From the NCBI RefSeq assembly GCF_004004565.1, contig NZ_SACM01000004.1, positions 62,001 through 126,000 on the forward strand: a stretch of 64,000 bases of DNA, in the 5' to 3' direction. The stretch comes from Inhella crocodyli. Lineage in GTDB: Bacteria; Pseudomonadota; Gammaproteobacteria; Burkholderiales; Burkholderiaceae_C. This document shows positions 54,532 to 64,000 of this stretch, one piece after another. The notes under the pieces are model-generated. The model had not been told where the DNA came from and searched no databases. It worked only from the letters and a program-made list of their open reading frames with translations. A program made the position numbers and the translations under genes. Within the stretch, counting starts at the first letter, position 1. Every line of letters begins with the position of its first letter.

Positions 54532-56325
54532 TCAGCCCCGGGCCAGGCGCTCCAAGTCGATGTCGAGGTTCTGGAACAAATCGACCCAGAACAGCTGCCG
54601 GCGGTAGCCGATGACCCAAGGGTGGGCCATGTCGTTGACGATGCGATGCACGTGCACCTTCATCGGCATGAAGGCCACCTGGATGCGCTTGGCCTCGTGG
54701 AACAGCGCGTCGCGCTCGGGGCCGTCGGGCAGCAGTTGGGCCTTCTCGTACAGGCGGTCGAAGGGCTCGTAGCGGAAGCGCGAGTAGTTCTGCTCGCCGG
54801 CCTGGGGGCCGTACAGGCGCTGCAGCATGCCGATGCCGTCGGGGTAGCTGGCGGTGCTGCCCAGGTACCAGAGCTGCAGCTTGCCGGCGCGCGCCAGCTT
54901 GAGCTGCTCGGGCCACTTGCCGGTGACGAACTTCGGGCGGATGCCGATGGCACGCAGGTTGCGGTTCGACAGCTCGTCGAACTGCCGGCTCAGGGCGTCG
55001 GGCTGGGTGGCGATTTCGACCGTCAGTGGCGTGCCGTCCGGGTGCTCGCGGTAGCCGTCGCCATCGCGGTCCTTGTAGCCGTACAGGTCCAGCAGGGCCT
55101 GGGCCTTGGCCGGGTTGTACTCGCCGTTCTCGCTCTTGAACGCCGGGTCGTAGCCGGTGGTGTGGGGCAGCACCAGGCTCTGCGCCACGATGGCCTGGCC
55201 GCGGCGCACGCGGCGGATCTCGCTTTGCACGTCCATCCCCAGGCTGATGGCGCGGCGCAGGGCCACGCGGTGCGGCTCCATGCCGCCCAGCTGGGGGTCG
55301 TCCATGTTGAAGAAGGTGAACGCGCAGTCGGCCGCGGGCAGGCGGAAGAGCTGGATGCCCTGCTTGGCCAGGTTGGGTGCCACCTGGCCGTTGGGCAGGG
55401 CGACGTTGACGAACTCGGGCGGGATGCGCTCGATGAAGTCGTGCTCTTTGTTGAGGAAGCTGAGCCAGCGCGGCTGGCTCTCTTCGATGGGGCTGATCTC
55501 GACGCGGTCGATCAAGGGCAGGCGCTTGCCCTTCATGTGCGCGGCGATCTTCAGCGCCTCGGGGTCGGTGGCCGTGGTCTCGTAATAGACCTCGCGGTAG
55601 CCGGGGTTGCGCTCCAGCGCGATGAAGCTGCTGCGCCGCCACTGCGCCAGGCGGTAGGGGCCGGTGCCCACGGGGTGGGCGGGGATGTCGTTGCCGTACT
55701 TCTCGACCACCTCGCGCGCCACGGCCCCGAAGAGGTCGCTTTGCGCCAGCACCTCGACCAGGCGCGGGCGCGGGGCCTTGAGGCGGAACTGCAGCGTGTA
55801 CTTGTCGAGGGCGCGCAGGCCTTCGAGCGGCGTGTCGTAGTCAAAGGCCCCCTTGGCGGCCTGCTTGCGGCGCTCGGCCAGGCCCAGGATGCCCTGCTCG
55901 TCCACCGAGGGCCACATGGGGCTGACGGTCTTGGGGTCGGCAAAGCGCAGGAAGCTGTAGACGAAGTCCTGCGCCACCAGCTCGCGCTTCTTGCCGCCAA
56001 AGGCCGGGTCGTCCTGGAAGAACACGCCGGGGCGGATGCGCACGGTGTGCACCGTGAAATCGGCGTTGGTCTCGGGCAGCGCGGTGGCGATGCGCGGCAC
56101 CAGGCGCGCCGGTCGGGCCAGGGGGTCGTAGCCGTACAGGGCTTCGAACAGGTGGCTGGTGACGATGCGCGAGTAGATGTCCGAGATGCGGGCCGGGTCG
56201 AAGCCGGTCTCCGCGATCTGGAAGGCCATGCGGAAAACCTTCTTCGGGGCGTCGGCGCGCACGGTGGCGGGCGTCAGGCCGGCCAAGGCGGAGGCCGCCA
56301 AAACCTCACGGCGCTTGAAACTCAT
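54532..56325 (-). CDS. Family-5 extracellular solute-binding protein, paralogue 3
   Basis: This 597-residue protein has an export signal with an Arg pair (MSFKRREVLAASALAGLTPATVRA) and the SBP_bac_5 fold used by peptide, nickel and opine transporters. Characteristic parts are FRMAFQIAETGFDPARISDIYSR, HPVGTGPYRLAQWRRSSFIALERNPGYR, FNMDDPQLGG and RRAISLGMD. A DxDxDG loop (KDRDGDGYREHPDG) lies about two thirds along. Its start overlaps the stop of paralogue 2 (ATGA). No permease gene is next to it. Ligand unknown; peptide is the default guess for the family. Confidence 0.92.
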   Translation of the reverse strand: MSFKRREVLAASALAGLTPATVRADAPKKVFRMAFQIAETGFDPARISDIYSRIVTSHLFEALYGYDPLARPARLVPRIATALPETNADFTVHTVRIRPGVFFQDDPAFGGKKRELVAQDFVYSFLRFADPKTVSPMWPSVDEQGILGLAERRKQAAKGAFDYDTPLEGLRALDKYTLQFRLKAPRPRLVEVLAQSDLFGAVAREVVEKYGNDIPAHPVGTGPYRLAQWRRSSFIALERNPGYREVYYETTATDPEALKIAAHMKGKRLPLIDRVEISPIEESQPRWLSFLNKEHDFIERIPPEFVNVALPNGQVAPNLAKQGIQLFRLPAADCAFTFFNMDDPQLGGMEPHRVALRRAISLGMDVQSEIRRVRRGQAIVAQSLVLPHTTGYDPAFKSENGEYNPAKAQALLDLYGYKDRDGDGYREHPDGTPLTVEIATQPDALSRQFDELSNRNLRAIGIRPKFVTGKWPEQLKLARAGKLQLWYLGSTASYPDGIGMLQRLYGPQAGEQNYSRFRYEPFDRLYEKAQLLPDGPERDALFHEAKRIQVAFMPMKVHVHRIVNDMAHPWVIGYRRQLFWVDLFQNLDIDLERLARG

Positions 56326-58130
56326 TGGGGCACCTTGCTGGGGTCGAGGTCCACGTACTCCCACCAGTGCTGCCAGAAGACCGGGCGGCGGTAGCCGCTC
56401 AGTTGGGCGCGCTCGATGTCGAGGTGGAAGCGGTGGCCTTTGAACTTGTAGGGCATGTAGGCATTGCCCAGGTCGCGCATGCGCGTGATCAGGGCCTGGC
56501 GCTCCGGCCCATCGGGCAAGGCGCTGATTTGGTCGTAGAGCTTGTCGGCCTCGGGCAGGCTGAAGCGGGCAATGTTGTTGCCCCCGATGTGCACGCTGGA
56601 GAAGCGCGAGGCGGCCGAGCTGATGTCGGGCTGGGCCGACGAGTAGGCCACCATCCACATCTGCGTCTTGCCCCCGCGCGCGGCCTTGAGCTGCTCGGGC
56701 CACTTCTTGGTCTCGAAGGGGATGCACAGGCCGACGCGCTTCATGTCCTTGTTGAACAGGTCGTCGATCTGGCGTTGGATGCCTTCGGGCGTGGTCGACA
56801 TGGCCAGCTTCAGCGGCTTGCCGTCGGGCGCGTCGCGGCAGCCGTCGCCGTCCCGGTCGACGTAGCCGTAGACGTCGAGCAGGGCCTTGGCGCGCGCCGG
56901 GTCGAAGTCGCTCATCGCGCTCTTGAACGCGGGGTCGTAGGCGCTGGTGCCCGGCGGGTAGGTGCCCTGGGCGGGAATGGCCTGGCCGCCGCGCGCCACG
57001 CGGATCTCGCGCTGCACGTCCATGGCCAGGCCGATGGCGCGGCGCAGCGCCACCTTCTCGGGCGTGTAGCCGCCGACCACGGGGTCCTCCATGTTGAAGA
57101 ACATCAGGAAGACGTCGGAGCCCAGCGTGCGGTGCAGGCGCATGCCCTGCTTGGCCAGGTTGGGCGCCAGCTGGCTGTTGGGGGCGGCCACCGAGAAGAA
57201 GGGCTCGGGCACGCGCTCCAGGAAGTCGTGCTCACCGCCCAGGAAGCTCAGCCAGCGCGGCTGGTCTTCGGCGAGGATGCTGATCTCCACGCGGTCGATC
57301 ATCGGCAGGCGCTGGCCCTTGAACTTCGCCAGCAGCGCCTGGCCGGCGGCGTCGTCGGCCGCGGGTTGGGCGTCGTAGCGGCGCTCGCGGTACTGGGGGT
57401 TGCGCTCCAGCGCGATGAAGGAGCTGCGCCGCCACTGCTTGAGCACGAAGGGCCCGGTGCCCACGGGGCGGGCCATGGTCTGGTCGCCGGCGGCCTCGAC
57501 GACCTCGCGCGCCACCGCGCCGAACAGGTCCGACAGCGCAATCTCCTGCGGGAAGCGCGGGTTCGGCTTGTCGAGTTGAAAGCGAACGGTGTAGCGATCG
57601 GGGGCCTGCAAGCCCGTGATCGGCGCGTCGTAGGGGAAGTCGGTTTTGGCCGCGCTGGCCTTGTCGCGCGCCGCCTTCAGGCCCGTGAGGTGCCAGGCCT
57701 CGACCGTGCTCCAGGCCGGTGACGCGGTCTTGGGGTCGGCGAAGCGCTTGATGCTGTAGACGTAGTCGGCCGCAGTCAGCTCGCGCGGCTTGCCGCCAAA
57801 GGCGGGATCGTCCTGGAAGTAGATGCCCGGCTTGACCTTCACCGTCCACACGGTGAAGTCGGCGTTGGGCACCGGCAAGCTCTCGGCCGTCAGCGGCTTG
57901 AGCTGCGCCGGCCGCGCGAGGTGGTCGTAGGTGATCAGCGCTTCGAAGATGTGGGCCGTGACGGTGCGCGAGTAGATGTCGAGGATCTTGGCCGGATCAA
58001 AGCCGGTCTCGGCCACACGGAAGGCGTAGCGCAGGGTCTTCTTCGGTGGCTCGTTGGCCTGCGCCACCGCGTCGGCGCCCAGCACGCCCCCCGCCAAGAG
58101 CCCAGCCAGGGCCAGCACGCAAGCACGCAT
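56322..58130 (-). CDS. Family-5 extracellular solute-binding protein, paralogue 2
   Basis: This 602-residue protein has a signal peptide (MRACVLALAGLLAGGVLGADAVAQ). It is closely related to its two neighbours: LRYAFRVAETGFDPAKILDIYSR, RPVGTGPFVLKQWRRSSFIALERNPQYR, FNMEDPVVGG, and the loop VDRDGDGCRDAPDG. Its ATG shares one base with the stop of paralogue 1 (TGATG), and its stop overlaps the start of paralogue 3. Such tight coupling implies equal production of the three. It differs from the others in carrying a Cys in the DxDxDG loop. The ligand may differ between the three. Confidence 0.92.
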   Translation of the reverse strand: MRACVLALAGLLAGGVLGADAVAQANEPPKKTLRYAFRVAETGFDPAKILDIYSRTVTAHIFEALITYDHLARPAQLKPLTAESLPVPNADFTVWTVKVKPGIYFQDDPAFGGKPRELTAADYVYSIKRFADPKTASPAWSTVEAWHLTGLKAARDKASAAKTDFPYDAPITGLQAPDRYTVRFQLDKPNPRFPQEIALSDLFGAVAREVVEAAGDQTMARPVGTGPFVLKQWRRSSFIALERNPQYRERRYDAQPAADDAAGQALLAKFKGQRLPMIDRVEISILAEDQPRWLSFLGGEHDFLERVPEPFFSVAAPNSQLAPNLAKQGMRLHRTLGSDVFLMFFNMEDPVVGGYTPEKVALRRAIGLAMDVQREIRVARGGQAIPAQGTYPPGTSAYDPAFKSAMSDFDPARAKALLDVYGYVDRDGDGCRDAPDGKPLKLAMSTTPEGIQRQIDDLFNKDMKRVGLCIPFETKKWPEQLKAARGGKTQMWMVAYSSAQPDISSAASRFSSVHIGGNNIARFSLPEADKLYDQISALPDGPERQALITRMRDLGNAYMPYKFKGHRFHLDIERAQLSGYRRPVFWQHWWEYVDLDPSKVPQ

Positions 58131-59920
58131 CAGCGGGTCTCCTGCGCCAGGCGCTCGGTGTCGATGTCGACGTAGGCAAAGAAGTCGCGACGGAACACGT
58201 TGCGCTCGTAGCCCATCAGCCAGGGCTGCGTCAGGTCGTTCCACAGGCGGTGACCGACCACTTTGTAGGGCATGTAGGCGATGGCCAGCTTGGTGGCCTC
58301 GTTCATCACGCGCTGGCGCTCGGGGCCGTTGGGCAGCACGGCCTGCTGCTCGTACAGGGCGTTGTAGGCCGGCAGGTCGAAGCGCGCGTGGTTGGCCTGG
58401 CCGGCGTTGGGGCCGTAGGCGATGGCCAGGTGGTAACCGGCGTCGGGCGTCGTGGCCACCCAGGCCACGCCCCACATCATGAGCTTGCCCGCGCGGCTGG
58501 CCTTGAGGTTCTCGGGGAACTTGCCGAACTTGAAGTCGATGCGGATGCCCACCGCGGCCATGCTCTTCTGCCAGATCTCGGCGCGCGCGCGGTCCTCGGC
58601 CGTCTCTTGCAGGTTCATGGCCAGGCGCAGGGGCGTGCCATCGGGGCGCTCGCGCCAGCCGTCGCCGTCGCGGTCTTTGAAGCCGTGCAGGTCCAACAAG
58701 GCCTTGGCCTTGGCCGCGTCGTGCTCGTTCATCAGGCTCTTGAACGTGGGGTCGTAGCCCCAGGTGCCGGGCGGCATCAAGCCCTGGGCCGGGATCATCT
58801 GGCCGCGGCGAACGAGACGGATCTCCTGGTCGGTCTGGTAGGCCAGCGAAATGGCGCGGCGCAGTGCCACTTGGTGGACGTCGTAGCCCCCCACCATCGG
58901 GTCCTGCATGTTGAAGAACACGTGGTTGATGTCGGGGTTGACGTAGGGCACCTTGGCGATGCCGCGCTTGACCAGGTTGGGCGCCAGTTGGCCGTTGGGA
59001 AGGGCCACGGGCGCGAACTCGCCCGGCAGCTCTTGAATCAGCTCGGCCTCGCGGTTGAGGAAGCTCAGCCAGCGAGGCTGCGATTGCTCGATGATGGCGA
59101 TCTCGACGCGGTCCACCATGGGCAGCGGGCGGCCCTTGAACTTTTGCGCCACGGCCTGCAGGTCGGGTCGGTCGGCCGGGGCCTCTTCGGCGTAGCGCTC
59201 GTCGCGGAAGTTCGGGTTCTTCACCAGCACGATGCGGCTGGAGCGGCGCCACTCGTCGCGCTTGAGCATGAAGGCCGCCGTACCGACCGGGTGCTGCGGC
59301 GTCTTGTCGCCGTACATCTCGACCACCTCGCGGGCCAGCGCCGCGGCCAGCGGGTTGGTCAGGTTCTCGACGAAGCGCGGGTCGGGCTTGCCGAGCTGGA
59401 TTTGCCAGGTGTACTTGTCCAACACCTTCAGGCCTTCGACGGGGGTGTCGTAGTCGAAGGGCTTCTTGGACTTCAGCGCCTTTTGCCGCAGCTCCGACAG
59501 GCCCAGCAGCTTGGCGCTTTCAAAGATGTAGAGGTTGGGGCTGTTGGTGGCCGGGTCGTAGTGGCGCTTGATGGAGTACACATAGTCGGCCGCCACCAGC
59601 TCGCGCTTCTGGCCTTTGAAGGCCGGGTCGTCGGAGAAGTACAGGCCCGGGCGCACCTTGAAGGTGATGGTCTTGAAGTCGGCCGAGACGGTGGGCAGCT
59701 CGCAGCCGGCGGGCTCCATGCGGTAGGGGCGGGCCAGGTAGGCCCAGCGCAGGGGCGCGTCGAAGATGGCCGTGTTGACGATGTTTGAGTACGAATCGGA
59801 CACCCGCGCCGGGTCGAAGCCGGTTTCCGCCGCGCGGAAGGCGTAGCGCAGCACCTTGTCTTGCGCCTGTGCCGACAGCACCACCAACGCGGCCAGCGCC
59901 GCCACCCAGACCTTCTTCAT
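58130..59920 (-). CDS. Family-5 extracellular solute-binding protein, paralogue 1
   Basis: This 596-residue protein, first of the three, has a signal peptide MKKVWVAALAALVVLSAQAQ. Shared features are LRYAFRAAETGFDPARVSDSYS, HPVGTAAFMLKRDEWRRSSRIVLVKNPNFR, FNMQDPMVGG and KDRDGDGWRERPDG. A GAAGGTGAAGG tract lies just before the ATG. A TACACT box (59993-59988, leftward) about 68 bases upstream of the start could be the -10 of the operon promoter. It is divergent from the cyclase gene at 60078. The three proteins probably serve the same or related permeases, with the transporter at 43780-47431 a candidate. Confidence 0.92.
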   Translation of the reverse strand: MKKVWVAALAALVVLSAQAQDKVLRYAFRAAETGFDPARVSDSYSNIVNTAIFDAPLRWAYLARPYRMEPAGCELPTVSADFKTITFKVRPGLYFSDDPAFKGQKRELVAADYVYSIKRHYDPATNSPNLYIFESAKLLGLSELRQKALKSKKPFDYDTPVEGLKVLDKYTWQIQLGKPDPRFVENLTNPLAAALAREVVEMYGDKTPQHPVGTAAFMLKRDEWRRSSRIVLVKNPNFRDERYAEEAPADRPDLQAVAQKFKGRPLPMVDRVEIAIIEQSQPRWLSFLNREAELIQELPGEFAPVALPNGQLAPNLVKRGIAKVPYVNPDINHVFFNMQDPMVGGYDVHQVALRRAISLAYQTDQEIRLVRRGQMIPAQGLMPPGTWGYDPTFKSLMNEHDAAKAKALLDLHGFKDRDGDGWRERPDGTPLRLAMNLQETAEDRARAEIWQKSMAAVGIRIDFKFGKFPENLKASRAGKLMMWGVAWVATTPDAGYHLAIAYGPNAGQANHARFDLPAYNALYEQQAVLPNGPERQRVMNEATKLAIAYMPYKVVGHRLWNDLTQPWLMGYERNVFRRDFFAYVDIDTERLAQETR

Positions 59921-60077
59921 CGCCTTCACCTTCGCCAAAAGCAGCACAGCGCCATCGCCTTGTGGGCGCGGCGCTGAAGAGGCGTCCAGTGTAGAGAGCC
60001 CCGCCCCCCGTTCCCCCTCGGAAAACCCGCCGCGCCGGAAGGGAAAGCCCCCGGCGAGCTGACGGGATACTTGCGCC

Positions 60078-61877
60078 ATGTCCACCGCCCGCGACACGCC
60101 CGCGCTGCGCCTGGCCCACCGCGCCTGGCGCCGCCTGCACCTGCACGCCGACGAAGCCCGCCAACTGGCTGGCCGCGCCGCCCAGCGGGCGAAGGCCGAC
60201 GGCGACGCCCTCGGCGCGGCCCGGGCCGAGCTGGTCAGCGCCTTCCACCAGCTGTACTTCGGCCAGCCCGAGATCGCCGCCGGCCGGCTGGCCGCCGTGG
60301 CGCGCGAGCTCGACGCCCTGGGCGACCGGGCCGGCGACATCCTGGCCCACGTGGGCCGCGCCCGCGCGCTGTGGCGCGGCGGCCAGGCCCAGGCGGCCCT
60401 GGACCTGCTCATGCCCCTGCGCGACGAGGGCCTGCACCTGCTCGGTCCCTCGCAGCGCGCCGTGCTGCTCAATGCGATTGCCGGCTGCCACTCGGCACAG
60501 GGCCGCAGCGCCGAGGCCTTCGCCTACATGTTCCAGGCCCTGCGCGACGCCGGCCCCAAGCGCGGCGACGGTTTCGACGCGGTGCTGCACTGCAACCTCA
60601 GCCACGAGCTGGTGCAGCTGGGCGACGCCGACGAGGCCCTGCTCGCCATCGAGCGCGGCCTGGCCCGCTGCGACGGCCTGACCAACCCGCGCCTGCGCGG
60701 GGTGCTGCTGATCAACCGCGTCATCGCGCTGACCGAGCTCGGCCGCGCCGCCGAGGCCCTGCCCGACGTGCGCGAGATTTGCGCCACGCCCACCGACGCC
60801 AGCGGCCGCGGTCAGGTGGCCCTGCACTACGAAACCCTGGCCCTGGCCGTGCTGCACGCCGGCGAGGCCGAGTGGGGCGCCGACCTGCTGGAGCGCGCCG
60901 CGCCCCTGGTGCGATTGAGCGACGAGCGCGTCGAGTGGGCCCTGGCCCAGGCCAAGCTGGCGCAGCTGCGGGGCGCCCTGCCCAACGCGCTGGCGGCGCT
61001 GGAAGCGGTGCGCCCGCTGCTGAACGCCGAAGGCGATGCCGCCACCAGCCTGCGCGTGCGCTGCGCCCATGCGCTGCTGGAGGCCGAGCTGCACGAGGCC
61101 CTGGGGCAGGCCCCCACCGCCCTGCAGGCCCTGCGGCGCTGGCAAGACTGGCAGCAGCAGCGCCTGCGCCAGGCCTCGGTGGCGCGCTACCAATCGGCCG
61201 CGCTGCAAACCGAGCTGCTGGACCTCCAACACCGCCTGGACCTGAACGAGGCCCAGCGCCGGGCCACGGAGCGCGAGCGCGAGCAGTTGGCCCGCGCCAA
61301 CGCCGCGCTGCAACGCAAGATCGAAGAGGTCGAGGCCCTGCAGGCGGCGCTGCGCGACCAGGCCCTGCGCGACGCCCTCACCGGCCTGGCCAACCGCCGC
61401 CACCTCAACGACAGCCTGCCCGCCACCGTGGCCCTGGCCATCCGCGAGGCCGCCCCCCTGTCGGTGGTGGTGATCGACCTCGACCATTTCAAGCAGGTCA
61501 ACGACCAGTTCGGGCACCCCGCGGGCGACCAGCTCTTGGCCGCCTTTGGCGCGCTGCTGCGCGCCCACCTGCGCCGCAGCGACCAGGCCTTCCGCTACGG
61601 CGGCGAAGAGTTCTGCCTGCTGCTGCCGCACACCCGCGCGCGCGACGCGCAGGCCACCGTGCAAGGCCTGCTGGCCGCTTGGCGCGCCCAGCGCTTCGTG
61701 CTGGATGGCGAGGTGGAGCTGCAGGGCCAGAGCTTCTCGGCCGGCGTGGCCGACACCGAGGCCGCCCCACCCGTGGCCGGCGCCTTGCTGCGCGCCGCCG
61801 ACCAATTGGCCCTGGCGGCCAAGCGCGCCGGCCGGGCCTGCGTCTTGGTCTACGACGCCGTGGCGCCGGGCGCCTAG
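60078..61877 (+). CDS. Cytosolic TPR-GGDEF diguanylate cyclase C
   Basis: This 599-residue protein has no signal peptide or membrane helix. TPR-like helical repeats fill residues 1-360, and a coiled coil (about 370-425) leads to a GGDEF domain at about 430-590. The active loop is exact GGEEF, the inhibitory RxxD site is present (RRSD, five residues before), and VVIDLDHFKQVNDQFGHPAGD is intact, so it should make c-di-GMP. It differs from cyclases A and B in being cytosolic. Its stop overlaps the stop of the converging gene at 61874 by 4 bases. Confidence 0.91.
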   Translation: MSTARDTPALRLAHRAWRRLHLHADEARQLAGRAAQRAKADGDALGAARAELVSAFHQLYFGQPEIAAGRLAAVARELDALGDRAGDILAHVGRARALWRGGQAQAALDLLMPLRDEGLHLLGPSQRAVLLNAIAGCHSAQGRSAEAFAYMFQALRDAGPKRGDGFDAVLHCNLSHELVQLGDADEALLAIERGLARCDGLTNPRLRGVLLINRVIALTELGRAAEALPDVREICATPTDASGRGQVALHYETLALAVLHAGEAEWGADLLERAAPLVRLSDERVEWALAQAKLAQLRGALPNALAALEAVRPLLNAEGDAATSLRVRCAHALLEAELHEALGQAPTALQALRRWQDWQQQRLRQASVARYQSAALQTELLDLQHRLDLNEAQRRATEREREQLARANAALQRKIEEVEALQAALRDQALRDALTGLANRRHLNDSLPATVALAIREAAPLSVVVIDLDHFKQVNDQFGHPAGDQLLAAFGALLRAHLRRSDQAFRYGGEEFCLLLPHTRARDAQATVQGLLAAWRAQRFVLDGEVELQGQSFSAGVADTEAAPPVAGALLRAADQLALAAKRAGRACVLVYDAVAPGA

Positions 61878-62662
61878 CGTGCGAGGCGCCCCACGTAGCG
61901 GTACTCGTCCAGGTAGGCCCAGAGGTACTGGTCCAGGTAGCGCTGCTGCGCCGGCGTGAAGCGCAGGGCGGCCACCGCGGCCGGGTCCTCGCGGCCGTCG
62001 GAGCTGTCCATGCGCTGCAGGTGGAAGAAGGTCATGTCCTTGCCACCGAAGAAGCCTTTCAGGTACTCGTGCCGCGGCCGGGCGGTGCCCATGTCGAACA
62101 CGTGGCCGGCCAAGGCGGTGAGCGGCCCGGGGCCGGCCAGGGCATCCGCACCCAGCGCCGGCCAGTCGCCGGCGGGCGGCGCGAAGGGCGCCACCGGCTG
62201 CGCGGGCATCACCGGGTGGGCGCGCAGCGCGGCGACGTAGGCCGGGTCCAGGCCCGCGCCTTCGGCCCCGCGCAGCACGATGTTCAGGTAGCGCTGGGTG
62301 GGCAAGCAGGCCTCGTTCAAGAAGGAGGCGTCGCCCACGTAGGTCAGGGCGCTTTGCTGCCCTTGGTCGGTGTGCACGGTGACCTCCACCCGGTGGTAGC
62401 CGTGGCCGCAGGCCTCGGTGGCATCCAGCGGGCCCAGGGCCTCGTCCTCGCAGCGGTGCAGCACGCCGCAGACGCGGTCGCCAGGGTGCGCCGAGGGCTC
62501 GACGTTGCCCACGCCGCCCTCGTGGCGGAAGAAGTGCTCGACGTTGAAGCGCAGGCGCCAGCCCGGCAGTTCGGCGCGGCAGGAGGCCAGGGCCTGCACC
62601 CCCTTGGCCCGCAGGGCCGTGAGGTTCATGTTGGAGCCGTAGCCGAAGTACCAAAACGCCAT
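61874..62662 (-). CDS. Gamma-glutamylcyclotransferase-like protein
   Basis: This 262-residue protein begins MAFWYFGYGSNMNLTALRAKGV, the YGSN signature of the gamma-glutamylcyclotransferase (AIG2/GGCT) fold. LHRCEDEALGPLDATEACGHGYHRVEV contains the probable catalytic Glu of the family, in DATEA. A C-terminal extension of about 110 residues (from GLDPAYVAALRAHPV) includes a further conserved-looking part, FDMGTARPRHEYLKGFFGGKD. The family releases 5-oxoproline from gamma-glutamyl amino acids or has related acyl-transfer roles; the real substrate here is unknown. The gene converges with cyclase C. Confidence 0.87.
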   Translation of the reverse strand: MAFWYFGYGSNMNLTALRAKGVQALASCRAELPGWRLRFNVEHFFRHEGGVGNVEPSAHPGDRVCGVLHRCEDEALGPLDATEACGHGYHRVEVTVHTDQGQQSALTYVGDASFLNEACLPTQRYLNIVLRGAEGAGLDPAYVAALRAHPVMPAQPVAPFAPPAGDWPALGADALAGPGPLTALAGHVFDMGTARPRHEYLKGFFGGKDMTFFHLQRMDSSDGREDPAAVAALRFTPAQQRYLDQYLWAYLDEYRYVGRLAR

Positions 62663-62763: not shown

Positions 62764-64000
62764 ATGCCCATGCCCCGCCCCGCGCGCTATGACTTCGTCG
62801 TCGGCCGCCGCAGCGATTCGAACGCCTACCAAGTCTGGCGATTCGACCCCGACACCCCCGAGCTGCTGCACCCGATGCCGCTGTCGGACAAGGCGAGCTT
62901 CCCCGCGTCGCACACCCTCGTGCCCATCGGGCGCTACCTGCTGGAGTACGGCCCGGCGCAGTTGTCCGAGTACAGCGCGGTGTTCCCCTACCGCCTGTTC
63001 GAGTTCGACCCCAACAGCCCCGACCCCCTGGCCGGCAAGCCGGTGCAAAAAGGCCTGTGGCCGCGCTCCAAGTTCTGGATGTACCGCCCCGACTTCGCCA
63101 ACCCGGGCGGGGCCAAGGAAGGCTTCGACACCGCCAACGACCTGATGCTGGTGCCCCTGGGCAGCTTCCTGCTGCACCTCATCCCCACCATGGGCCGCAC
63201 CACTTACCACCTCTGGAACTTCGACCCCAACCCCTTCCCGCACCACTACAGCGACCCGCTGCCGGCGCCTTACACGCCCACCGGCTCGATCGAAGGCCTG
63301 CACGCCAACAGCCAGCTCATCCCGTTGGGCAACTACGCGCTGGAGTGGACGCCGGGCAAGGACGGCAGCGACTACTACCTCTGGAGCTTCGACCCCCAAG
63401 GGCGTCCGCCGCTGGCCATGCCGGCCGTCCAACAGGGCCGTTGGACGCACCTCACCGACCAAAGCCGCCTGATCGCCGTGGGCGAGCAGGTGCTGGACTG
63501 GAACCCCGGGGACCGCAGCTGGCGCCTGTGGGACGTGGACGTGCGCCAGGCCGACCCGCTGGTCGGACCGGTGCGGCATGGCGTGCTGCCCGCCAGCGTG
63601 GACACCAACACCACGCTGCTGGCCGTGCAGCCGCCCCTGCCCATCGACGACGCCCGCGCGCAGATCCCCGGCACGGTGGACTTCATGCGCAGCCGCATCG
63701 AGCACGTGGTCTACCTGATGCTGGAGAACCGCTCCTTCGACCACGTGCTGGGCTGGCTGTACGAGCAGGGCGAGACGGGCATCCGCTTCGTGGGCCACGA
63801 CAAGCCCTTCGACGGCCTCAAGCCCGAGATGAACAACCTCAACCCGCGCAACGGGAACCAGCCGGTCTACGTCCAGAAGTACATGAAGGGCGATTTCGGG
63901 CAGGAGGAGAACCTCGACTTCTTGCCCAACGACCCGTACCACGACAAGTCCGACGTGATGCGGCAGTTCTTCTTCGACCACCGCGACGGCTACGCGCAGC
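62764..64000 (+). CDS. Phospholipase C-type phosphoesterase with N-terminal propeller-like repeats (3' truncated by window)
   Basis: The window ends after 412 codons with no stop. The ATG follows a GGAGG ribosome site. Residues 20-290 contain repeats alternating (L)IPLGxYxLEW (around 52, 127, 185 and 236) with YxLWxFDP (21, 75, 147, 204 and 252), which suggests a beta-propeller. From residue 310 the alkaline phosphatase-like phosphoesterase domain begins with RIEHVVYLMLENRSFDHVLGWL, the ENRSFDH metal and phosphate site of bacterial phospholipase C and acid phosphatases. No signal peptide is seen. It may act on phospholipids or other phosphodiesters. The catalytic core beyond residue 412 is outside the window. 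Confidence 0.85.
   Translation, partial: MPMPRPARYDFVVGRRSDSNAYQVWRFDPDTPELLHPMPLSDKASFPASHTLVPIGRYLLEYGPAQLSEYSAVFPYRLFEFDPNSPDPLAGKPVQKGLWPRSKFWMYRPDFANPGGAKEGFDTANDLMLVPLGSFLLHLIPTMGRTTYHLWNFDPNPFPHHYSDPLPAPYTPTGSIEGLHANSQLIPLGNYALEWTPGKDGSDYYLWSFDPQGRPPLAMPAVQQGRWTHLTDQSRLIAVGEQVLDWNPGDRSWRLWDVDVRQADPLVGPVRHGVLPASVDTNTTLLAVQPPLPIDDARAQIPGTVDFMRSRIEHVVYLMLENRSFDHVLGWLYEQGETGIRFVGHDKPFDGLKPEMNNLNPRNGNQPVYVQKYMKGDFGQEENLDFLPNDPYHDKSDVMRQFFFDHRDGYAQ

Follow-up and report, generated by a model that had tools for sequence, protein, structure and literature searches.

The window, a stretch of 64,000 nucleotides, ends within a gene that joins an N-terminal repeat domain to a PF04185 phosphoesterase, and a recurring small group of signalling and metabolic genes adjoins relatives of this fusion in at least seven bacterial phyla, suggesting a multi-gene system not yet described. 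It is this conserved neighbourhood that appears to be new: the literature consulted, of partial coverage and with few subscription journals, held no description of the fusion or of the gene set. We rate slightly above an even chance the reading that the protein is a catalytically intact phosphoesterase of the NPC/AcpA/PC-PLC type carrying a five-bladed propeller, and one component of a conserved set with sensor, lactamase-like, AIG2-like and UDG-fold-like proteins. Such a set would be a concrete multi-gene unit, sparse yet common to distant phyla. Its propeller, lactamase-like and UDG-fold-like members carry little or no annotation, and their strict co-occurrence turns several unannotated proteins into one testable system.

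The reading frame opens with the ATG at 62764 and runs past the edge of the window. Completed from the genome contig, as an earlier note on this DNA had advised, it encodes 797 amino acids (L002:6765-9158, the stop side lying at L002:9158), with the repeat domain at residues 1-290 followed by the phosphoesterase domain. The protein had been described as devoid of signal, and inspection by eye of the N terminus MPMPRPARYDFVVGRRSDSN agrees: no signal peptide is visible and no alternative signal is present upstream. Elsewhere in the window, three successive and mutually similar ORFs on the minus strand (54532-60472) look like extracellular solute-binding proteins of peptide ABC transporters. Immediately upstream of the AIG2-like gene, the plus strand at 60078-61877 encodes a protein of 599 aa whose C-terminal region is GGDEF-like and which is distinct from the large sensor of the gene set.

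Features of the fusion gene and its divergent neighbour (window positions; residue numbers are those of the encoded protein)
Feature	Position	Strand	Basis or remark
Propeller-phosphoesterase gene, residues 1-412 of 797	62764..64000	+	Remainder beyond the window, on contig C12 to 127157 (L002:9158)
N-terminal beta-propeller domain, residues 1-290, probably five blades	62764..63633	+	AlphaFold2, Foldseek; no Pfam or PDB sequence match
Blade 1, residues 10-37, lacking the first strand; probably closed by the strand at residues 283-288	62791..62874	+	DSSP of the model
Blade 2, residues 51-100 (LVPIGRYLLE ... LFEFDP)	62914..63063	+	Model, motifs
Blade 3, residues 129-177 (LVPLGSFLLH ... LWNFDP)	63148..63294	+	Model, motifs
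Blade 4, residues 184-227 (LIPLGNYALE ... LWSFDP)	63313..63444	+	Model, motifs
Blade 5, residues 235-274 (LIAVGEQVLD ... LWDVDV)	63466..63585	+	Model, motifs
Closing strand, residues 283-288	63610..63627	+	Model
Start of the PF04185 domain with E321, N322 (ENRSFDH) and H393	63697..64000	+	Pfam, NPC4 alignment
AIG2/gamma-glutamylcyclotransferase-like gene, divergent, adjoining the fusion gene	61874..62662	-	Pfam PF13772, PF06094

At least four copies of a pair of motifs had been noticed ahead of the catalytic domain, and the repeat domain indeed holds four copies of the first, at residues 52, 129, 185 and 236 in blades 2 to 5, and five of the second (VWRFDP at residue 24, LFEFDP at 78, LWNFDP at 150, LWSFDP at 206 and LWDVDV at 255). 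The spacings of the first motif (77, 56 and 51) agree with the 50-75 residues or so proposed at that time. A chance repeat is ruled out, as shuffling these 300 residues 20,000 times never gave two copies of either motif. The structure prediction that had been suggested for this region, run with AlphaFold2 on residues 1-303 and 49 aligned sequences, gave a confident model of a beta-propeller consisting of nearly nothing but strands (pLDDT 89.4, pTM 0.87). Used as a Foldseek query against the PDB, the model returned beta-propellers as leading matches, with TM-scores of only about 0.4, which would fit a propeller of different blade number. Strand order, matches and repeats are together consistent with radially repeated four-stranded blades. 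From the repeats and the strand order of the predicted structure we infer five blades and their closure, a number that differs from that of the matched structures. These include 6-phosphogluconolactonase-like, LRP6 YWTD, kelch and WD40 propellers, to which the sequence identity is about 10%. None of the 49 members of the repeat-domain set matched a Pfam propeller model and no PDB chain was matched in a sequence search, the propeller being undescribed in protein-family databases; Pfam matches of the set to CDI and DUF905 concern unrelated families and were judged spurious.

Homologous repeats were found on two proteins that, unlike the fusion, carry no phosphoesterase (profile scores 117 and 71 bits). 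In a different Burkholderiales genome, G158, a very long open frame of 2550 aa on the minus strand (L005:9416-16360) has a subtilase domain and five such repeats at its C-terminal end, and the repeats also begin the Streptomyces plasmid protein WP_271668456 (L006:5962-7392), before a weakly M35-like HExxH domain (HETVHF), a putative metallopeptidase. A serine peptidase gene lies about 1.6 kb away from the latter gene. The occurrence of the repeats on subtilase and M35-like proteins indicates that the propeller is a mobile module that tends to accompany hydrolases.

The phospholipase-type domain reported to follow the repeats is present as PF04185 over residues 312-686 (E 2e-62, 211.8 bits against a gathering score of 23 bits), with ENRSFDH at residues 321-327 (window 63724-63744). 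Among PDB structures its nearest sequence relative is NPC4 of Arabidopsis (8hav, E 9e-46 over residues 312-727), in which replacement of E23, N24, H79, T158, H264, D299 or E300 by alanine abolished or strongly reduced activity (PMC9837106). In the alignment these residues map to E321, N322, H393, T463, H581, D616 and E617, and with all seven present the window enzyme is predicted to be active. NPC4 shares the PF04185 domain and this full catalytic complement but has no N-terminal propeller, the match covering the catalytic part only, whereas the window protein is part of a set of signalling genes. Phosphocholine-specific phospholipase C (TIGR03396) and the Burkholderia acid phosphatase (TIGR03397) belong to the same superfamily and match parts of the catalytic region, but with 113 bits against a curated cut-off of 580 and 61 bits against 363, respectively; unlike them, the window protein has a propeller and lacks, as judged by eye, the Tat signal peptide that is part of the TIGR03396 definition. 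Scores so far below both cut-offs place it in a separate branch of the superfamily.

We looked for the same fusion in other genomes, as had been proposed. Searches with single propeller sequences found no phosphoesterase fusion beyond the window genome, one of them returning only the G158 repeats, and relatives were reached indirectly, using the G158 repeats as query and then an alignment-based search. Searching the phylum sample with the G158 repeats recovered two further fusions (G566 and G605), and the collection-wide scan yielded about 50 further species in at least seven phyla (Pseudomonadota, Bacteroidota, Acidobacteriota, Gemmatimonadota, Myxococcota, Cyanobacteriota and Thermodesulfobacteriota), some carriers being metagenome bins whose individual phylum labels may be wrong. 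Within the order sample the window genome is the only carrier among 300. The propeller-phosphoesterase fusion is an old, sparse family and not a unique protein, and the some 50 species rule out a domain peculiar to the window species. Nearly all members start no more than about 15 residues before the propeller and lack a signal peptide by eye; G566 is the only one with a Tat-like N terminus, and members from a marine gammaproteobacterial group are extended at the N terminus by a further domain of about 375 aa. The new enzyme type envisaged in the earlier note stands in part: the fusion has no signal and a repeat domain unmatched in Pfam and the PDB, but it is shared by many species, there is nothing unusual about the PF04185 domain that forms its catalytic half, a Tat-like signal occurs in one relative, and the propeller is joined to other hydrolases too.

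The alignment of catalytic residues also separated two forms of the protein. In 25 relatives N322 is replaced by S and E617 by K, and D616 is changed to S as well in four of these and in both second copies. NPC4 being inactive with either N24 or E300 changed to alanine, these 25 relatives, half of the family, are predicted to be pseudoenzymes. In a FastTree phylogeny of the catalytic domain they group as a single clade (support 1.0), which retains the full propeller-phosphoesterase architecture. In Winogradskyella and Cyanobium intact and degenerate copies are adjacent, the degenerate Cyanobium copy being fused to a domain that is encoded by a separate neighbour gene elsewhere. With key catalytic residues missing from 25 relatives, catalysis would not be what the family as a whole conserves, and the split offers a built-in test of binding versus catalysis.

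Gene neighbours, whose inspection had also been recommended, form one conserved set among the relatives. Neighbour genes were clustered, with undercounting on incomplete contigs, and the counts given are for the 36 loci that had 6.5 kb or more of flank to either side. A kinase-AAA_16-GAF sensor of 1700-1800 aa lies beside the fusion in 30 of the 36 loci, a metallo-beta-lactamase-like protein of 240 aa in 31 and an AIG2/gamma-glutamylcyclotransferase-like protein in 28, while the UDG-fold-like protein (NEXT) is found in 22, separate in 16 and in 6 fused to the phosphoesterase as the additional N-terminal domain seen in the marine group. In the window genome the set is split between two sites of a single contig, the genes for the sensor (60% identical), the lactamase-like protein (70%) and NEXT standing together about 101 kb from the fusion gene. 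The lactamase-like gene, present in the window genome, was recovered from 27 of 27 relatives' genomes tested, in several of them away from the phosphoesterase gene, as against 4 of the 299 other genomes of the order sample (one weakly), a comparison not matched for taxonomy as the 27 genomes span many orders. Even so, no other finding speaks as strongly for a functional unit as this co-occurrence. Near two of the four order-sample genes the other partners were not found, indicating that the lactamase-like gene occurs outside the set too.

These counts bear on a rival explanation, an ordinary phosphate- or lipid-scavenging phospholipase or phosphatase with the propeller as accessory binding domain and neighbours placed by chance. 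The typical PF04185 domain, which has secreted PLC and acid phosphatase among its relatives, and the Tat-like signal of G566 would agree with it, but it is already disfavoured by the co-occurrence of the partner genes, which are retained across phyla even when unlinked; it fits neither the absence of signal peptides from nearly all members nor a monophyletic inactive clade with intact architecture, and we regard it as very unlikely.

Among the partners, the sensor has as its terminal domain a class III cyclase in most genomes, that of the window included, and GGDEF in most marine gammaproteobacterial loci. It shares the kinase-ATPase-cyclase order of the TOMM kinase/cyclase fusion (TIGR03903) but scores 104 bits where the cut-off is 706, and adds GAF and, in many relatives, the GGDEF output. 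Pfam Lactamase_B_5 matches just 2 of 20 lactamase-like members. The AlphaFold2 model of a 344-aa NEXT member (pLDDT 85, pTM 0.87) had family-4 and UdgX uracil-DNA glycosylases as top Foldseek matches, at E 0.0065 and above and with TM-scores of up to 0.64 by target length; with no match below E 0.001, the uracil-DNA-glycosylase-like fold is tentative, a lead only. In NEXT, APG and, further along, NHP are conserved, and these two motifs may correspond to those of the glycosylases. Signal-peptide-like starts of this partner in several genomes, together with the Tat-like start of G566, make an envelope location possible for some members.

A regulated self-damage or anti-phage set could be imagined from these partners, in which the sensor would detect infection or stress and set loose a phospholipase inside the cell, joined in some genomes by DNase II and a DNA-glycosylase-like protein, to break down the cell's own membrane and DNA. 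Characterised relatives of these hydrolases are secreted or lysosomal, and here the hydrolases have no visible signal peptide; DNase II (PF03265) in 11 loci, the tentative fold of NEXT, the AAA_16 and cyclase domains of the sensor and the patchy distribution over many phyla point the same way. We nevertheless find it quite improbable: PADLOC returned no set-specific anti-phage model and only generic kinase and cyclase matches in the sensor, half of the family is predicted inactive, and inspection of nine loci, made without background comparison, revealed no consistent defence neighbours.

Other neighbours fit self-damage badly and would rather suggest metabolism. In four loci the gene after that of the sensor encodes a glutathione synthetase, GCS2 being adjacent to it in two; in four further loci the sensor gene is followed by aminotransferase genes. 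Together with the conserved AIG2-like gene and the near-general lack of signal peptides, they could reflect synthesis or turnover of a small gamma-glutamyl or glutathione-derived compound by ligases (GCS2, GshB), cyclotransferase and lactamase-like enzymes, the fusion removing a phosphate or phosphoester under sensor control. This too seems unlikely, as most loci show neither ligases nor aminotransferases within the flank seen, and a biosynthesis has no obvious place for DNase II or for the pseudoenzyme clade.

Under the reading we prefer, that of a phosphoesterase component of the conserved set, the Ser/Thr kinase-AAA-GAF-cyclase (or GGDEF) sensor would integrate a stress or ligand signal and produce a nucleotide second messenger, phosphorylate partners, or both. 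The propeller would dock the phosphoesterase, probably inside the cell, onto a substrate or partner, where it may cleave a phosphodiester or phosphomonoester by the two-step route of NPC4, with T463 as putative nucleophile forming a phospho-threonine, an acidic or metal site composed of E321, N322, D616 and E617, and participation of H393 and H581. Proteins of the sister clade, with their active site broken, would act through binding alone. A broader proposal, which we hold to be rather unlikely, is that of an undescribed, horizontally spread signalling-effector system, in which one sensor architecture with exchangeable output, cyclase or GGDEF, would control active and inactive propeller-phosphoesterases, side by side in some genomes, as well as the lactamase-, AIG2- and UDG-fold-like proteins, and which would turn on its own cell in response to stress, for suicide or in defence.

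A protein of about 590 aa with no Pfam match was also observed next to the fusion gene or the cassette in six loci (L034, L036, L037, L042, L046 and L027), and it is fused to the propeller-phosphoesterase in Cyanobium (L048:10690-14616).
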